From: Cenococcum geophilum 1.58
Lineage: Eukaryota; Ascomycota; Dothideomycetes; Gloniales; Gloniaceae
Assembly (NCBI GenBank): GCA_001692895.1
Contig: KV748184.1
Span: 1-64,000 of the forward strand
DNA length: 64,000 nucleotides
Reading direction: 5' to 3'
Positions within the stretch are counted from its first letter, which is position 1; each line of letters opens with the position of its first letter. Positions 1-20,663 of the stretch are shown piece after piece. The notes under the pieces are model-generated. The model was not told where the DNA came from, ran no database searches, and worked only from the letters and a program-made list of their open reading frames with translations. Made by a program: the position numbers and the translations under genes.

Positions 1-1548
1 ATCTATAAAGCCATTGTAGAGGCGTACCCAGGCCTTGATATATTACTCAGCAAAAACCCGCGGTTCAAACATCCACGTATGCCTTCTATTAATGTAATAC
101 CCGCTGCGCGGACGTCTAGGTTTAACCTAGGACCTATTATGACTGGAGAGGCTTCTATATCTGAAACCTATAAGGTACTAGACGACATTTTTCTCCATCA
201 AATGAATCTACAACGCACCGATAAAGCATTTGAGGAGCGACTGTTTCTGATCTATGGTGATCAAAAGACCGCAAAGCTTATTCGGTCATGTCAGGGAGAA
301 CGTACTGAGTCAATATCCGCCTATGATAGCCTGCGTTGGGCTCTGCCTATTCCAGCTCTTTGGCACCTAAAGCTGAACTACCTGTATATGGTTATACGGT
401 ATCACTATGGTGGCAAGCAATCAGCCCAAGAGTACTCTACGCTGTACACCCACATGAACCACCTAGGTCGAAGAAATATCCCAGCCGAGCGCGCGCCGTT
501 TCATCATATGGAGGAGCTAATTCTCCATAGCTTCGACGCTCGTATCNTAGCGTTGCTCCATACTCAGATTAAGGAGTCTTGTAACACCAAGTCGCCTATA
601 GATATCAAGCGGTACCTTAAAAGCCTATCTCCGCAACGTCTATTAGCAGTGGTCGAGGATATCCGCACAGCGGTTTTCGGTCAGGAAGTCTCTCGGGCGG
701 CCAACCATGCCAGCCAGCCTGCGGAACCACGGCAAAAGGGTCACCTTAAGCAGGCTGGCAGTGCTGCATCCTCACAAACACTTTCTAAGCCTGCTGATGC
801 AGAGTTTCTAACGCACGTCCGCTTTTTACAACTGGTAGAGACGTACAAGGTCCTCAAGCACGCCATCAAGCTTGCGGATATTGGCCTGCTCAGCCGCGTG
901 CTCCCCCGCATTTGTATCTATTTCGCAGGTGGTCGAAACAAGAACTATCTACCAGAGATGTTACGTTTCTTCCAGTTAACTTCAACAGATGCTTGTTCCC
1001 CTGAGCTCCAGCAAGCTATCCTAGTAAATAGTCTAGTGAATATCCGCGGCGAACAGGATAGTCACTACCCGATAGATCTCGACAACGAGCTACTTAATGG
1101 GGAGCTAAAGCAGCTTATGCACACTCGTGGCAATTCGACATTTAACCTAGACTCACTCTTCCGCTGGAGCATTCATATGACTAATTATACAGGGCCACTA
1201 CGTGCAAAGTTTGAGATCACGTTCGGCGAACGGATGTCTACTCGACATACTGTTAAATCTCCTGCAGCGGATATTCAATCGCTTGCTAATGCGATTGCCG
1301 AAGGTTCTATTATCCGCCGTCAGGCACGGCGAGCAAAGATGGAAGCGCCGCCTCTACTACAACTAGGTATTGAACGACTTAATCAATCTGCCCTCAACGA
1401 GTTCAATTCACGGCTAGGCGGTGATCTTTCCGCCGTGTTTGATGAGCTTGATCTCCATGACGATGATAATGAGCTAGATGGCTTCGTACTCCCTGCCGAC
1501 TTTGCTCAAACCCAGCTTCAACCTGCGTATGAGTTGCTCGATGAGTAA
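1..1548 (+). CDS. DUF6589-family protein, 5' end outside window
   Basis: The frame is open from base 1, so the ATG at 79 is internal; the protein began upstream of the window. About 515 residues are visible, ending at the stop at 1546-1548. The stretch YGDQKTAKLIRS (about residues 85-96 of the visible part) matches the GDQ-T signature I associate with fungal DUF6589 proteins. The C-terminus is acidic (LDLHDDDNELD). There is one N near 547. Molecular function is not known to me; a role in moving or maintaining the repeat unit is inference from the convergent RecQ-like helicase 289 bp away and from five ATATCCGC motifs inside this frame. No intron is evident, which is unlike the host genes in the window. 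Confidence 0.75.
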   Translation: MYKAIVEAYPGLDILLSKNPRFKHPRMPSINVIPAARTSRFNLGPIMTGEASISETYKVLDDIFLHQMNLQRTDKAFEERLFLIYGDQKTAKLIRSCQGERTESISAYDSLRWALPIPALWHLKLNYLYMVIRYHYGGKQSAQEYSTLYTHMNHLGRRNIPAERAPFHHMEELILHSFDARIXALLHTQIKESCNTKSPIDIKRYLKSLSPQRLLAVVEDIRTAVFGQEVSRAANHASQPAEPRQKGHLKQAGSAASSQTLSKPADAEFLTHVRFLQLVETYKVLKHAIKLADIGLLSRVLPRICIYFAGGRNKNYLPEMLRFFQLTSTDACSPELQQAILVNSLVNIRGEQDSHYPIDLDNELLNGELKQLMHTRGNSTFNLDSLFRWSIHMTNYTGPLRAKFEITFGERMSTRHTVKSPAADIQSLANAIAEGSIIRRQARRAKMEAPPLLQLGIERLNQSALNEFNSRLGGDLSAVFDELDLHDDDNELDGFVLPADFAQTQLQPAYELLDE

Positions 1549-4500
1549 TACAAGATATTAGCTATAAGCTATTACTACAACCGTTCAATATCCGCTATAG
1601 TTAGTAGCACTGGTACATATTCCCAAGTAATTGATATTATTAATTAATTAATCTATTTAGTTCCTGGGCCGCGCTTGCTAGGGGTGTAGGGTATAAGGGG
1701 AAGGGGGGGCGTCATCCTAATAGATATCAGCTACTATGGTTGCAATATCCGCTTGGCGGATATAAGGTAAACTCACCTAGTATTAGCTAACCCCGCCTGA
1801 TATCAACTAACCTCGCCTAATATTAGCCCGCTGTATACTAATTGGCGTTGCCGTTGATTTCCTGTAGTGCTCTTCGCATACGTTTGCCTCTGTTTAATCG
1901 CGCCGACCGCCTTTGCGGTACCAATAAAGACGTATCCAACTGGCGGGTTGCTGGCGGCATAGATGTATCTNACGGCTGGTATAAGGGTAATGATGGAGGA
2001 GTAGGAGCTGGAGACCCAAGAGTTGGCGAAGGCATAGGTACATCCTCTTCCTGAGTTATTGGCAAGAGGTCTATGGCTGACTGTTGACTAGCCTGCGATA
2101 TATCAGCGCCACAGTGAGGCGCTGATTGCCACGGCGCTGATATTTCAAATCTCCTATCTGAAACCTGCGAAGCCCGTATAAGAGCCTGTGATAAGCGCTC
2201 ATCCGCAGCAGCGTGCTGCTCTAACGCTTGGGAAAACCGCTCTGACATCTGCATAATTAACCCAGAAGAACCTGAGAGTTGCCCTATTTCTTTCTGTTTC
2301 TGCTTTCGTTCCTCATCTGCTAAAAGCTTAATAAGGGACGGAAGCTCCTCACCGAGGATATCAGGATCCCACTCAGGCATTGCTTGCCTTAATGATGCCG
2401 CATCTGGAACCCACCCTATGTTACAGAGGCGACAAAGCTGCTTATCCGGTATAACACAATTAACTGTAGGCGTCCATAATGTATCCTGATACCTGGCCTC
2501 CGCCCATTGCGTAAACCACTTCTGTATATTGCTTAACATAGGCTCCCGGCGGGTTTTCGCAATATCCGCACTATGGCTAGTGCGGATATCGTACTCGCAA
2601 TCCATGAATATTGCTGGGTTGCAGTTACTGCAACACAAGTCTTTACTAACAGTAGACTGTGGGTCTCCATAGTGTGTAAGTTGTATTGCTCGTAAGCATA
2701 CCTGATCCTCATTAACTAGCCGCCATAGGGTGAACGGCAGTTTACCACGCAACTGCGCATTAGTCAACCGCTTCTTTGGGCGTAGGGTCGGTACGATAAG
2801 CTCTTCAGGTAGGCGTACTGTAGAACCACCAGGGCTTAACCCACGCCCGCTTCTTGTATCTACCAACTGCTCAGTACTGACTGACGCTATAGATGAAGCA
2901 TCGCCCGCAATATCCGCAGTCTCTGCGTTTTGTCGCCCGCGGATATCATTGCGCAGCGCGCTTGCGCGAAGATCGCCTATACACTGAGGTTGTGTATGCT
3001 TAGAACCACCTAATTCATCGCAAGGACCCCGCCAGCGGCTCTCAACCATAAAGATTGCTTCGCCTGAGAGGCCTTCTCCTCGGCCTGCCCGGCCAAACCG
3101 CTGTGCCAGCATATTACAGGATTTGTGGCGAGGCATTCCATATTGGATCGAACGGTAGATATCCGGGACATCTGCACCGTGTGCTACTGCATCTGATGCA
3201 ACGAAAATTCGAATTCGAGACGTTGGGCGCGCGTATTCGGCGTACAAGCGGTCTTTGTCAATATCCGCAAGCGTTGCGTGGTAGCTCTGCACCGCTTCTC
3301 TAGCAACAGCAGCATCGTAGCCGCGATGGATCAACCAGCTGCGAATAGTATTACGACAGGCAGCTATCCACTCCTTAGAATCAAAGAAGATGATCGTCTT
3401 TGGAATCAGCTGAAGTTGATCGAACTGTTGGCGGTATGTCTGCTGTGCGGATATTAAGCGGCTTCTTGATTGCTCGCCTTCTCCTCGGTCACTATTACTA
3501 GCAGTGTGCGAATACACTGGAGCAGCAGCAATAGTAAAGTAAAGAGCTCGAAAGTCCTTCTTCTCTGGCGCGGTCATGACCCTCCGTATAATCTTTAGCT
3601 CCGGCCGATCGATTGGGGTTTTAATAACTTGTATATTAGGTTTAAACCCAGCCAGCTTGCATACAGTCCGAAACGTAGATGGGTCTAGTGTTGCGGTACA
3701 TGCAAACCAAGGCTTATCAACTAAGACTGAACGTACTTTAAAGAGTTGTGTGTACGCTATACGGAAGGTCTCTCCCCAATCAGCAAGCAGGTGTACTTCA
3801 TCAACCACCACAAGGGCAACATGGGAACGAAATATCGGGTCTATCAGAACCTTATGCAGCTTGTCACTAACCAAAAGCTCTGGGGAGATAAGGATATGTG
3901 TGTAGCTGCCCGTGCGGATATCCTCAATCAGCTCGGCGGATATTGTTTTCTCCCACACATGAACAGGTCGAACATAAGGTAGCTTTGCAATCTTTTTTAC
4001 TTGCTCTGACCCAATCGCGTTAAGTGGAAGAACAATAATAACAACTGCATTAGGTACAAGACATGGTAGTGCTTGCATTATCATACTCTTGCCAAAAGAC
4101 GTCTTTGCCACAAGCATGAGATCTCGCCGCTCAAATATCAGCACCCTCAGGGCCTCGAGCTGCTCCGTATGACCGCGGTACGGATATATCTCCGCAATAG
4201 CTTCATCTAGCTTGCTTATTTGAAGTTCATGAGAGCTGCTCATAAGCTGGGGTAGCTCCCTCCGCAGGCTATATAGCCGTGGAGACCGCTGGGGATCCAT
4301 TTCAATATAATCCCCAGCCCATTGCGTACTGCCAGCTTGTTGATCTGCTTGACTGGCTTGTGGTTTGCGACCTCTTTGCCTTATTCGCTTTGATGGAGGC
4401 ATTGGTGGATAGCGCTTAAAAGCAGCAGAGGGAGAATAGAGGGTTGGATAAAGGCAGGGAGGACTTAAACACGTTGTAATAGATAGATCTTAATGGGTTT

Positions 4501-4765
4501 TAATCATTGGATTATGGATATAATGGATGGAGAGTGGGTGGTTGAGATTGACGCGTCGTTGGTGCGGATATTGCTGATTGTTCACTTTGGCAAACCGCGT
4601 CACGGCTATTTTGAAATTAATGTCAGGAACGGGAAGGCGGGGAGACTTCTTACGTAGACCATTTGATTCGCCGGAGCCTAGTGTATAATCGATGGATTTT
4701 TCAAGCTGCCTAAACTTGTCGTAAGAATAAGAAGTGAATATCCGTAATATCAGCCATGCGGATAT
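313..4765. repeat. Dispersed 8-mer ATATCCGC/GCGGATAT, 18 copies
   Basis: Exact copies begin near 313, 659, 874, 1040, 1267, 1588, 1745, 1756, 2562, 2582, 2910, 2939, 3261, 3447, 3914, 3936, 4564 and 4758. About 0.14 would be expected by chance in 4.45 kb counting both orientations. Five lie in the DUF6589 frame, eight in the helicase frame, three between the genes and two beyond the helicase start. In coding DNA they are read as ADI, DIR/NIR or ISA, that is in three registers and both orientations, so the constraint appears to be on the DNA. Only three other copies outside the 9-bp array were noticed (30965, 33258, 53041). Confidence 0.85.
1838..4402 (-). CDS. RecQ-like superfamily 2 DNA helicase, repeat-borne
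   Basis: Intronless, 854 aa, starting MPPSKRIRQRGRK. Helicase motifs in order: Walker A AKTSFGKS (about 99-106), DEVH box in VVVDEVHLLAD (201-204), motif III ACTAT (234-238), and the C-terminal helicase lobe ending in QRFGRAGRG (434-442). Cysteine pairs follow (CCSNCNP, and LCRLCN further on), possibly a zinc-binding module. The C-terminal 150 residues are Ser/Pro-rich and end in a basic tail (RRSARLNRGKRMRR). The family unwinds DNA with a 3'-5' polarity. It converges with the DUF6589 gene and contains eight GCGGATAT/ATATCCGC motifs. This is not the cellular RecQ/Sgs1: it lacks a recognisable RQC-HRDC arrangement and resembles helicases spread by repeats. One N near 1971. Confidence 0.8.
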   Translation of the reverse strand: MPPSKRIRQRGRKPQASQADQQAGSTQWAGDYIEMDPQRSPRLYSLRRELPQLMSSSHELQISKLDEAIAEIYPYRGHTEQLEALRVLIFERRDLMLVAKTSFGKSMIMQALPCLVPNAVVIIVLPLNAIGSEQVKKIAKLPYVRPVHVWEKTISAELIEDIRTGSYTHILISPELLVSDKLHKVLIDPIFRSHVALVVVDEVHLLADWGETFRIAYTQLFKVRSVLVDKPWFACTATLDPSTFRTVCKLAGFKPNIQVIKTPIDRPELKIIRRVMTAPEKKDFRALYFTIAAAPVYSHTASNSDRGEGEQSRSRLISAQQTYRQQFDQLQLIPKTIIFFDSKEWIAACRNTIRSWLIHRGYDAAVAREAVQSYHATLADIDKDRLYAEYARPTSRIRIFVASDAVAHGADVPDIYRSIQYGMPRHKSCNMLAQRFGRAGRGEGLSGEAIFMVESRWRGPCDELGGSKHTQPQCIGDLRASALRNDIRGRQNAETADIAGDASSIASVSTEQLVDTRSGRGLSPGGSTVRLPEELIVPTLRPKKRLTNAQLRGKLPFTLWRLVNEDQVCLRAIQLTHYGDPQSTVSKDLCCSNCNPAIFMDCEYDIRTSHSADIAKTRREPMLSNIQKWFTQWAEARYQDTLWTPTVNCVIPDKQLCRLCNIGWVPDAASLRQAMPEWDPDILGEELPSLIKLLADEERKQKQKEIGQLSGSSGLIMQMSERFSQALEQHAAADERLSQALIRASQVSDRRFEISAPWQSAPHCGADISQASQQSAIDLLPITQEEDVPMPSPTLGSPAPTPPSLPLYQPXDTSMPPATRQLDTSLLVPQRRSARLNRGKRMRRALQEINGNAN

Positions 4766-5534
4766 CGCGACGTGCTTTACAAACGTCGGCCAAAGTGTCT
4801 CAGACCACACAGGGACAGATGGCCTAAACTGGTTTAGTGCCATCGGGCCGGATTTATCCGGCGTCCCATGTGGTCTGAGCATGCTGAGACAAGTCTGCGT
4901 TGGCGTGAGCGCCTGATCACCTGACCCTTTCGCCAATAATGATAACAGGGCTAGGATTTGGGTCGTGCTTCACTCTAAGCAACGCTAGTTGAAGGTTATT
5001 TATATCAAAATACATTCATTTTAGGGTATTACCCATCATTTATTAAATGATCTATTTTGGTATACTATATAAGCTCAGTCCTTTAGAACCCGACCACCCT
5101 CTAAACTCAGGCCATTTTATATAAATTAGCGATCTTTTGCCCCTATTAAAAATAATAGATAATTAAAAAAAGTTAAATATTAAAGTTATAGTTTATATAG
5201 TTAAGCTAAACTATATATTAAGCTTTCAAGTTTTAAGTTTTAAGTTATTACATAATATATCAGTTTTTTTACAGGGGTAAAAACGCTATTTTGTATGAGA
5301 AACGAGTCCCAATACCCATCAAATCTTGAATTGAATATCAACCTCAAATCTCATGCAAATGAACCAATTAGTAACCCCCCCCCCCAAACAAACAAACACC
5401 AGTGACCTGACAAGTAATGCAACGCCTAATGCTCCCGAGTATGCGCGTAGCACAATAATGGTCTTGTAGGGTTTGCTTTCATACCCGCGAATGTGATTCC
5501 CACGTTGTTCCCTCCAAACGTTAGTATAACAAGG
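4403..5534. other. Non-coding flank of the helicase module
   Basis: Upstream side of the helicase gene. It contains two further motif copies, the palindromic block at 4797-4890, then a very AT-rich stretch (about 4990-5280) with repeated AAGTTTT words, and a C10 run near 5375. An open frame on the minus strand (4490-4936) has no ATG near its start and runs through the palindromes, so it was not called. Confidence 0.6.
4797..4890. repeat. Compound palindrome able to form a three-way junction
   Basis: An outer stem pairs CTCAGACCACA (4799-4809) with TGTGGTCTGAG (4869-4879), and GGGAC (4812-4816) with GTCCC (4863-4867). Inside it are two separate hairpins: GATGGCCTAAAC (4818-4829) with GTTTAG and GCCATC (4832-4844, one bulged base), and GCCGGAT (4847-4853) with ATCCGGC (4856-4862). 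A further palindrome, GTCT-G-AGCATGCT-G-AGAC, overlaps the right arm (4873-4890), and GGCG/CGCC follows near 4902-4913. It lies just beyond the last ATATCCGC copies. A terminal structure of the repeat module is inference. Confidence 0.7.
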
Positions 5535-18002: not shown

Positions 18003-20512
18003 CAGGGTTGTTTTGGATAATGCGAATAAGCGAGCATAAAATATCCTTTATCCAATAGAAAATGCATAAAATATCGCAATCGATAAGGATAAAAGTGCCC
18101 GTGCGGAGCTTTTCTACCCCAACTGGTAAGACTCCTGGCAGAATTCGGCAGAATTTAGTAGACTTAGCAGAATTTGGCAGATATTGCAGATATTACAGAT
18201 ATTATAGATATTGCGGATATTACGGATATTGCAGATATTGCGGATATTGCGAATACTGCGGATATTGTAGATATTGCGGATATTACAGTACCTTTCCCCC
18301 CTAACTATATAGCTAAATACTTAGAGAAAAATTACCTATTTCTCTTATAGTTCTTCTCTAATGCTAATTCTTTAAATACTTTGTTTTCTTAAGAGTTTCA
18401 GAATCTATCTATATTCTCTCCCATAATACTATACAACGTTCTCCTAAAAAGACTTTTTCTAGCTTATCGCTTATTGCTAAAATTAAGAGAATTTTAATTG
18501 CTATAAGCGAGAGCCGTGGCCAGCGCTTTTGTTACTATTCTTAAGACCACCACTAAAGTGCAGTTATTGAAATCTTATATGGCGTCTTAGAGATAAAGTC
18601 CTTATACTTATCTTAACTTTTTAGTTAAAACATTATACTATTAAGATCCTTAGTAATCTTATTAAACTCATTAAGGTCTTAAGCTAGAGCTAGCCTTTTA
18701 TACAACGATATACTTTTAGGCGTAAAACTCCTATTCTAATATCTTTCCTAAAGCTCTTTAACGCTATTAAGTATAGGCCTACGCCACTCCTTCTTCTAAA
18801 CCTGCTTAATATATCTTATATAACGGGCTAGATAAAGAATAAGTGCAGCGGCGTAAAGGGGCAAGTTATCTATTTTATAATAATATCTATTAAAGGTATT
18901 CTAAGCATTTTTAATACGTTTAAAGAACTCCTTATTAGATATATACTCCCTCTATTATATAATATTAGCTAAATTAAGAAATAAAAGGGGGGATAAACTA
19001 ACCTAGGATTTATTAAGGTACTTAATTATAATATTTATTATAAAGAGTACATTCTTAAGCGTTGCTTTATATTCTTAGCATTTTAGGGTTACCTAGTAAA
19101 ATATTTAAAGAAAACTTTTTATTATATAAAGCGCCTCCTAGTCCTTTAGACTAAGATAGTCCTTTTTAAGCGTATTAATATTACGCTTAGTATACATATT
19201 AAGGGCAGACTCTTTTTTAATTACTACACTAAGTATAAAATACTAGCTATTCTATCTTATATAATTATTAAGCGGAATTCTTTTCCCTATAAGACTTTTA
19301 AACTCCTTTATATAACTAGCTAAGCTACAGGTATATATAGTAATATTATAAAGCTTTCTAAGTGCGCTAAGTTTCTAAAATATATTACTTTTCTCTTTCT
19401 CCTCTTTTAGATCTAACTTTTTTCCTTTTACCTTATCTTTTTTATATAACTTAATGTTATTAAAACTAATTAAGTTTTTAAAGAGGAAAGCCTATATAGT
19501 AAGGTTAAGAATATAACCCTAATAGCGGATCCGTTAGTAGATGGGATTCTATTTAATTCCTTGTTCCTAAAAAAGCTAGTCGCTTATTATATAACAAAGC
19601 TTATTATTTATAGTATGGTTATTAGATATAACAGTACCTAGCTTTTACATAATTCTATAGTCCTTAAGTACTAAAAGGAGAGTATTTTATTACTCGTCCC
19701 CGCTATAGGAGGCTACCATATAGAGGCTGAGAAGAGCGTTTATAAGCTTTTTCTAACTATTTATAAAATAGCCGCAAATTATAAGGAGAAGGTAATTATT
19801 TAGAGAGGTCTAGATATTAATAGAGAGATAAATACTTATTAGTGTAGACTATAGCCTCTTTTATATAATATCCTTTTGCGATAGCTATAAGTTATAAATC
19901 TTTTTACTAACTATTAAATGGGCTATAGTTATATAGCCGTCTATTTTAGGATTAATTAACTATAGAAGAATATAGAACTCTAGCCACTTAACTATCTAAA
20001 ATAGTAAGTTTTATATAACAATTAATGTAATAAGGGCCTTATTAATAACTTCTTTATTTAGGACTACTTAAAGTACTTCTAAATCTAGCTCTTCTATCTT
20101 ATTTTAAGATAACGCTTTAAGGTAAAGGTCTTTTAATTAATCCTATATTACTTCTTTTATATAACTAGTTTTAGGCTTAACCGTAATGCTATGCTTTAAC
20201 ATTAAGTGGTTTCAGAAGTTAGAAGTTGACTATATAGCGTATAACTCTATATAGTGTTTATAATAGAATAAAAGACGGGCTTTTTTATTTTATACGGGCT
20301 TATTACTGCCTAGTAGACAGGTATGCTCTTATGTTAAAAGAGCTAAGTGACCTCTTATATTTTTTAATTTAGAGGTATTAATAGAGTCAAGAGCTTCTAA
20401 TTCCACTTCTGAAGTTATATTTTGTACAATAATAAAGAAGAAGAAGGCGACTGAAAATTTATTTGGGGTATGCCAAGACTTATCGCGATAAGATTTATCC
20501 AAAACAACCCTG
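18003..20512. mobile_element. hAT-superfamily DNA transposon, AT-rich (RIP-like) interior
   Basis: The 18-bp ends CAGGGTTGTTTTGGATAA (18003-18020) and its exact inverse (20495-20512) are flanked by the perfect 8-bp duplication CTCCTGCT (17995-18002 and 20513-20520). An 8-bp duplication and CAGGG ends are typical of hAT elements. Subterminal DNA holds ATCGCGAT/TTATC words and the 9-bp array. From about 18300 to 20440 the sequence is extremely A+T-rich, rich in TA, and stops occur in all frames; no transposase can be read. This is the pattern left by repeat-induced point mutation. Ends intact with interior mutated suggests insertion followed by RIP, or mobilisation in trans. Length is 2510 bp. 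Confidence 0.88.
18177..18284 (+). repeat. 9-bp minisatellite, consensus GCGGATATT, 12 units
   Basis: Twelve contiguous 9-bp units; four are exactly GCGGATATT (18213, 18240, 18258, 18276) and the rest differ at one to three positions (GCAGATATT, ACAGATATT, GTAGATATT and similar). Degenerate GGCAGAATT units precede it from about 18137. It lies 175-280 bp inside the left end of the hAT element, where transposase-binding subterminal repeats usually sit. Its unit contains the same 8-mer that is scattered through the DUF6589/helicase module. Confidence 0.9.
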
Positions 20513-20663
20513 CTCCTGCTATGCCCATTCCGAGTACGAATTGAGACTCATGAGGATGTTTGGTGGGTTTTCTGCAGGTTTCTTCAGTGAGTATCATCGT
20601 TTAATACCCAAAATGGAGCCGACACACGAGTATGAAGATAAGATGAAGTTGTATCAGATGTAG

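Follow-up and report, generated by a model that had tools for sequence, protein, structure and literature searches.

Near the start of contig 9 of Cenococcum geophilum 1.58, one 8-nucleotide word, ATATCCGC (GCGGATAT on the opposite strand), recurs through a unit encoding a DUF6589 protein and a RecQ-like helicase. The question raised by this locus is why a single short word should be so frequent across two genes and the DNA around them, and what might recognize it. The window, i.e., the whole analyzed stretch of 64,000 nucleotides, represents the start of contig 9, and searches covered the whole genome (177.2 Mb, 162 contigs). According to the scan of the window, exactly 18 exact matches are located at 313–4765, nine per strand, which is the number given in the original prediction made from the letters of this DNA alone. 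As it had also stated, the matches are found in both genes and in the spacers (five in the DUF6589 frame, eight in the helicase frame, three in the spacer, and two to the right of the helicase gene). The features of the locus are as follows.

1..4892, right-hand part of a DNA transposon of ~6.44 kb (delimited using the contig-41 copy and the definition of the ends)
1..1548, plus strand, 3' part of the DUF6589 gene (PF20231, 7e-67)
313+, 659+, 874-, 1040+, 1267-, motifs in the DUF6589 frame (span 313..1274)
1588+, 1745+, 1756-, motifs in the spacer (span 1588..1763), the last two forming an inverted pair
1838..4402, minus strand, RecQ-like helicase gene, 854 aa, DEAD and Helicase_C domains (Pfam), convergent with the DUF6589 gene
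2562+, 2582-, 2910+, 2939-, first four motifs in the helicase frame (span of all eight 2562..3943)
3261+, 3447-, 3914-, 3936-, last four motifs in the helicase frame
4564-, 4758-, motifs to the right of the helicase gene (span 4564..4765)
4799..4879, right-end hairpin CTCAGACC...GGTCTGAG, without an exact motif
4871..4892, minus strand, right terminal inverted repeat, reading inward TTGTCTCAGCATGCTCAGACCA

The transposon and its copies

The unit is a DNA transposon of ~6.44 kb with terminal inverted repeats and 9-bp target duplications. Since the contig begins inside the element, its left ~1.55 kb are missing from the window; the predicted unit extends by this length beyond the contig start. 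The left part was supplied by an element copy situated terminally on contig 41, where positions 4660–4999 of locus L061 are 100% identical to window positions 1–340; locus L037 matches window positions 341–4184 at 99.9%. The assembled element is 6435 bp long between CTCAG and CTGAG, or ~6443 bp with the outer TTGA/ACAA. Both ends read TTGW-CTCAGCATGCTCAGACCA, and a second inverted repeat, the hairpin CTCAGACC...GGTCTGAG, lies inside each of them. Ten left flanks were taken for the analysis of target duplications, two of which had no left-end match and one a different start. In all seven remaining relics with both flanks assessable, a 9-bp duplication was found with 8 or 9 of the 9 letters matching, both mismatches being C/T, as compared with 1.88 matching letters on average (maximum 4) in mispaired control flanks. 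In addition, contigs 42, 74, and 149 start at the same base inside the element as the window does, their helicase and DUF6589 coordinates being identical, and this common start of four contigs probably reflects assembly breaks at near-identical element copies.

The DUF6589 frame comprises 939 aa in the full element, the ATG at position 79 being internal. The DUF6589 domain is known from fungi; no relatives were found in viral contigs, and 38 pattern matches in bacterial and archaeal contigs contained no relative. Single-sequence fold prediction of the part encoded in the window gave a pLDDT of 35, too low to be used, and no solved structure matched a two-sequence DUF6589 profile. As for the helicase, its residues 70–272 match RecQ (4tmu, 7.6e-20), and residues ~70–277 match RecQ, WRN, and BLM structures.

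Among the 53 helicase copies scored, eight are stop-free with 100% identity, all located within ~5 kb of a contig end, and stops interrupt the remaining 45. Most of these stops are TAG or TAA, TGA numbering 0–6 per copy. Alignment of 22 relics with the window shows C>T in 11,758 of the 12,100 changes at C (strands pooled), an excess as expected of repeat-induced point mutation (RIP) or a similar process.

Density and placement of the word

The whole window contains 25 motifs, versus a mean of 1.82 and a maximum of 7 in 100 dinucleotide shuffles. Scaled to 4.45 kb, the shuffle mean gives ~0.13 expected motifs, in agreement with the predicted value of ~0.14. The full element of 6435 bp contains 26 motifs, 13 per strand, versus Markov expectations of 0.30, 0.57, and 2.47 (orders 1, 2, and 3, respectively). 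This word is the commonest 8-mer of the element, and all other 8-mers with at least 8 copies overlap it. The motifs are distributed over all parts of the element: two in the 275 bp of the noncoding left end, 11 in the 2817 bp of the DUF6589 frame, three in the 292 bp of the spacer, eight in the 2562 bp of the helicase frame, and two in the 486 bp of the noncoding right end, so that coding frames hold 19 of the 26. The pair at 2562/2582 forms a perfect inverted repeat with a 4-base loop.

The original prediction placed the word in every reading register. This proved too broad for the two genes of the window, where three of the six possible registers are used (read as ISA, D/N-IR, and ADI); the remaining ones (YPR, RIS, and RGY) occur in the related families described below, and all six are present when the families are pooled. 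Counts pooled over the three families show a sharp word with a small halo of near-variants: there are 62 exact words, while each of the 24 one-letter neighbours occurs 0 to 11 times (0.4–1.2 expected), the most frequent being ATCTCCGC (11) and ATATCAGC (10). The motif is preceded by A at 18 of the 26 sites in the window's element and by G at 11 of 18 sites in the related locus L062, and the flanks vary between sites within the window's element.

The claim that protein conservation does not explain the motif was borne out by synonymous-codon shuffling. Four frames together contain 30 motifs, versus a mean of 3.75 and a maximum of 10 in 2000 shuffles; the observed and mean shuffled numbers are 11 and 1.17 for the DUF6589 frame of the window's element, 8 and 1.21 for its helicase frame, 5 and 0.47 for the DUF6589 frame of L062, and 6 and 0.91 for that of the related locus L063. 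The turnover of motif positions between families, considered in the next section, likewise led to the rejection of protein conservation as the cause.

General over-representation in the genome was also rejected as a cause. The genome-wide count, proposed in the original prediction as a check, gave 15,430 copies of ATATCCGC, fewer than those of its reversal (26,725), and the word is scarce in the remainder of the window. Seven motifs lie in the window outside the element, four of them within one 9-bp tandem array; without the relic at 18003–20513 that carries this array, three motifs remain in ~56.6 kb, which is far from the equal density in unrelated sequence that would have spoken against a signal specific to the unit. 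When the first 100 plus-strand motifs of contig 1 are considered, 24 are found no more than 8 kb away from the two DUF6589 relics present there (1.30 expected). Many genomic motif sites show no similarity to the elements compared, and some are located in tandem arrays.

Two other repeats carrying the word were observed. The relic at 18003–20513 is hAT-like, with ends CAGGGTTGTTTTGGATAA, an 8-bp duplication CTCCTGCT, and an AT-rich interior; its array has the 9-bp unit GATATTGCG. In a repeat family represented by L016 (positions 1372–3008) and L024, situated on contig 1 at ~427 kb and ~611 kb and 84.5% alike over 3 kb, ATATCCGC and ATCTCCGC lie close together beside a GGTTTCCTATACTAGAACTAAT-like stretch. 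No link between the latter repeat and the DUF6589 elements was found.

The position of the word at the element ends is regular on the left side. The left hairpin encloses a motif both in the window's element and in L062, in L063 a motif lies within ~90 bases of the left terminus, and a left-end motif is present in all three families within ~120 bases of the terminus. At the right end of the window's element, the nearest motif (4758) lies ~125 bases in. The pattern CTCAGACC-N20-50-ATATCCGC occurs 274 times in the genome, versus two occurrences of the reversed pattern.

Related families and outgroups

Two diverged DUF6589 families of the same genome carry the word, so that it has not been lost in other copies of the unit. 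L062 (contig 75), with the main frame intact, shares 52% protein identity with the window's element over the main part and 39% over the N-terminal part; for L063 (contig 4), which contains a few stops, these values are 48% and 37%, respectively. Each contains 18 motifs, in 5.6 and 4.8 kb of element. L064, a 97% copy of L062, has 15 motifs, and L075, L077, L078, and L079 of the L063 family have 7, 9, 7, and 7 motifs in 2.0–2.2 kb.

Codon alignment of the DUF6589 exon of the three families showed motifs at 13 homologous places. As to whether positions are kept between diverged copies, one of them (DIR) is common to all three families. Two are common to two families, namely, YPR and ADIG, the latter with N at one base in L063. 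The other 10 are family-specific, and at each of them at least one residue differs from both other families. At 48–55% identity these residue differences alone would be weak evidence; taken with the codon control, they indicate a steady density of a word whose positions shift. At one place, the motif lies on opposite strands in the window's element and L063, four bases apart.

Outside the DUF6589 exon, L062 and L063 have a second module that is 86.7% alike across ~1.77 kb and in which motif sites are shared by descent. Tandem spacings between motifs are 12 and 24 in L063 and 24 in L062. Because of the similar module and the tandem copies, the motif sets of these two loci are in part dependent on each other or on local duplication. 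Regarding the module itself (L062 4137–5896, L063 3–1749), its identity of 86.7%, versus ~67% for the DUF6589 genes, suggests exchange of modules. A local expansion of the word is seen at 4362–4405 of L063, where a tandem repeat of 12 bp (GGAATATCCGCT) carries four motifs.

In L062–L064, homology to the helicase was not detected (stretches of 5.6 kb for L062 and 4.8 kb for L063), so in the stretches compared the motif goes with DUF6589. A second gene common to the three motif-bearing families was not found, DUF6589 being the only shared gene detected.

Two more distant DUF6589 relics do not carry the word. No motif occurs in the 3.3 kb of L076 and the adjacent L080 (30% identity) or in the 1.5 kb of L081 (26%), 4.8 kb in total, of which ~3.0 kb is DUF6589-coding and part of L080 may fall outside the element. 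This outgroup sample consists of two relic families with one copy each; L076 has 49 DNA matches in the genome, 19 of them spanning the whole query. The outgroups are AT-rich (GC 0.38 in L076 and 0.35 in L081), but L077–L079 are as AT-rich (GC 0.34–0.37) and yet have 7–9 motifs in 2 kb. A word of the outgroup's own, AACTCCTA (six copies in the 3.3 kb of L076 and L080), was considered and is unsupported, since three of the six copies are at 10-base spacing and L081 has none.

The codon shuffles, the presence of the same word at mostly different places in diverged families, and its absence from the two distant relics make it well supported, on sequence grounds, that the enrichment reflects a DNA-level signal unexplained by the proteins. 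To this extent the interpretation in the original prediction stands; among its further suggestions, an identity tag and binding by a protein that the element encodes fit best. Nothing emerged in favour of a replication or packaging signal, nor anything to the contrary.

Possible reader of the word

The occurrence of the word in both orientations, at the left ends and throughout the elements, together with DUF6589 as the only common gene found, makes a recognition site for the DUF6589 protein the simplest reading. We consider it somewhat more probable than otherwise that ATATCCGC is this DUF6589 clade's own recognition word, most likely bound by the DUF6589 protein and kept by selection on DNA; a protein as the reader, DUF6589 as that protein, and its action in transposition or anti-silencing are what we infer. 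The putative reader would bind the left-end motif of each family and also body sites every ~250–310 bp, genes included, so that the whole element would be marked as self. Selection on the element would keep the density of the motif and not its position: substitutions would remove sites in one place and create them in another, even where this means a change in the protein, with some local tandem expansion. The word may serve assembly of the transposition complex, protection of the element from silencing, or both. Since end recognition alone needs no body sites, a coating role (self-marking, anti-silencing, or anti-RIP) is attractive. Against DUF6589 as the reader, the right-end hairpin of the window's element lacks an exact motif, Pfam recognised no DNA-binding domain in the protein (DUF6589 was the sole hit even at E up to 0.1 and 1), the motifs of L062 and L063 are partly dependent, and the word is rarer in the genome than its reversal and has many copies outside the elements compared.

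A different kind of reader would be a host protein that binds DNA (a regulator, insulator, or chromatin factor), whose sites the transposons would have gathered to stay active. In favour of this, all three motif-bearing families come from one genome and other repeats carry the word, including the hAT-like array, the contig 1 arrays, and L016/L024; however, two outgroup relics of the same genome are without it and few copies occur in the window's host sequence, which makes a host reader unlikely. An equally unlikely case is that the body sites act only against silencing or RIP and are read by another element protein, the end sites being incidental. The density throughout the element body fits this, and there is a precedent in VANC21, which reads short motifs that are dense within one transposon family (PMC5735166). 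In the 22 relics, the C>T rate at motif cytosines is also 0.55 of that at locally matched trinucleotides, with 16 of 17 sites below expectation and none of 5000 random window sets as low. This ratio nevertheless ranges from 0.34 (three bases before and two after matched) to 0.73 (one before and two after), other CCGC words reach 0.78 and one-letter motif neighbours 0.83, and the bases flanking the motifs show no footprint (0.94–1.03). Because of the low CCGC words and the flanks, the deficit is not counted as evidence of binding; retention of 259 of the 374 site-copies in relics proves nothing by itself. The systematic left-end placement and the failure to find a second gene common to the families also disagree with another element protein as the reader.

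It is improbable that the words mark where the element helicase loads or pauses, or that they do so for the replication of an excised element. Although the element encodes a RecQ-like helicase and some inverted pairs, e.g., 2562/2582, could form hairpins, L062 and L063 bear the motif without detectable helicase homology in the stretches compared. Least probable is a neutral origin by mutation bias, slippage, or sparing of the word by the C-to-T process. In its favour, neither CpA nor TpG is part of the word, mutation in relics is somewhat lower at CCGC words, and the spacings of 12 and 24 reveal tandem copies; on the other hand, an intact, undecayed element contains 26 motifs where no unrelated 8-mer reaches 8 copies, flanks are unlike from site to site, and the AT-rich outgroup relics have none.

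The word and its element can be compared with several known systems. Ac and En/Spm carry subterminal transposase-binding repeats, a short repeated word near the transposon end; the present word is instead spread over the full length of its element, both genes included. In Neisseriaceae, DNA uptake sequences are a short identity-tag word across coding DNA that serves as a genome-wide bacterial uptake tag; the present word belongs to a transposon clade of a fungus. Target duplications are short in AcademH (~3–4 bp) and ~9 bp in Mutator-like elements (MULE). The 9-bp duplication resembles the MULE superfamily, but a MULE-type transposase domain was not found, Pfam giving DUF6589 alone. AcademH and KolobokH are described as helicase-bearing fungal DNA transposons with DEAD/Helicase_C (PMC10799480). 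Compared by description, the present element is like AcademH in having a helicase gene with these domains and differs in the partner, DUF6589, and in the duplication of 9 bp.

The closest parallel concerns VANC and the VANDAL elements of Arabidopsis, where sequence-specific anti-silencing and motif reading by the element-encoded VANC are proven (PMC5735166, PMC10398659). Both systems have a short motif that is dense in one transposon clade, different or absent in relatives, rare elsewhere, and in part spread in tandem; the element-encoded reader, proven for VANC, is supposed here. VANC motifs are reported mainly from noncoding tandem repeats in one orientation, whereas 19 of the 26 motifs here are in coding frames, 13 are on each strand, and they arose mostly by substitution. 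Demethylation is described for the VANC system. In the literature searched, DUF6589 was not mentioned by name and no element-wide transposase motifs were found; among the matches listed, papers containing the letters of the 8-mer seemed unrelated by title.

More tentatively, the word may represent an element-wide self-identity code, in which the coding DNA of a eukaryotic transposon clade is selected to carry the recognition word of its own protein at steady density and free position, and the protein sequence yields to it; other DUF6589 clades would then use words of their own, dialects that serve anti-silencing or self-recognition. If so, this would be a eukaryotic DNA recognition word imposed on coding sequence across a selfish element and held by density. 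It would provide a handle on how transposons discriminate self from host DNA and persist in genomes that heavily mutate repeats, and would offer a candidate role for the functionally uncharacterized DUF6589 family. The prediction is that each DUF6589 clade has its own word, which can be checked by computer in other fungal genomes.

Probable short derivatives of the element were observed as well. The inner word of the terminal inverted repeat occurs 88 times in the genome, including 10 facing pairs ~1.0–1.6 kb apart (e.g., contig 84, 328556–329529), which are likely non-autonomous derivatives. Another non-autonomous derivative, of ~0.8 kb, is contained in L013 and carries two motifs, both at its left end.
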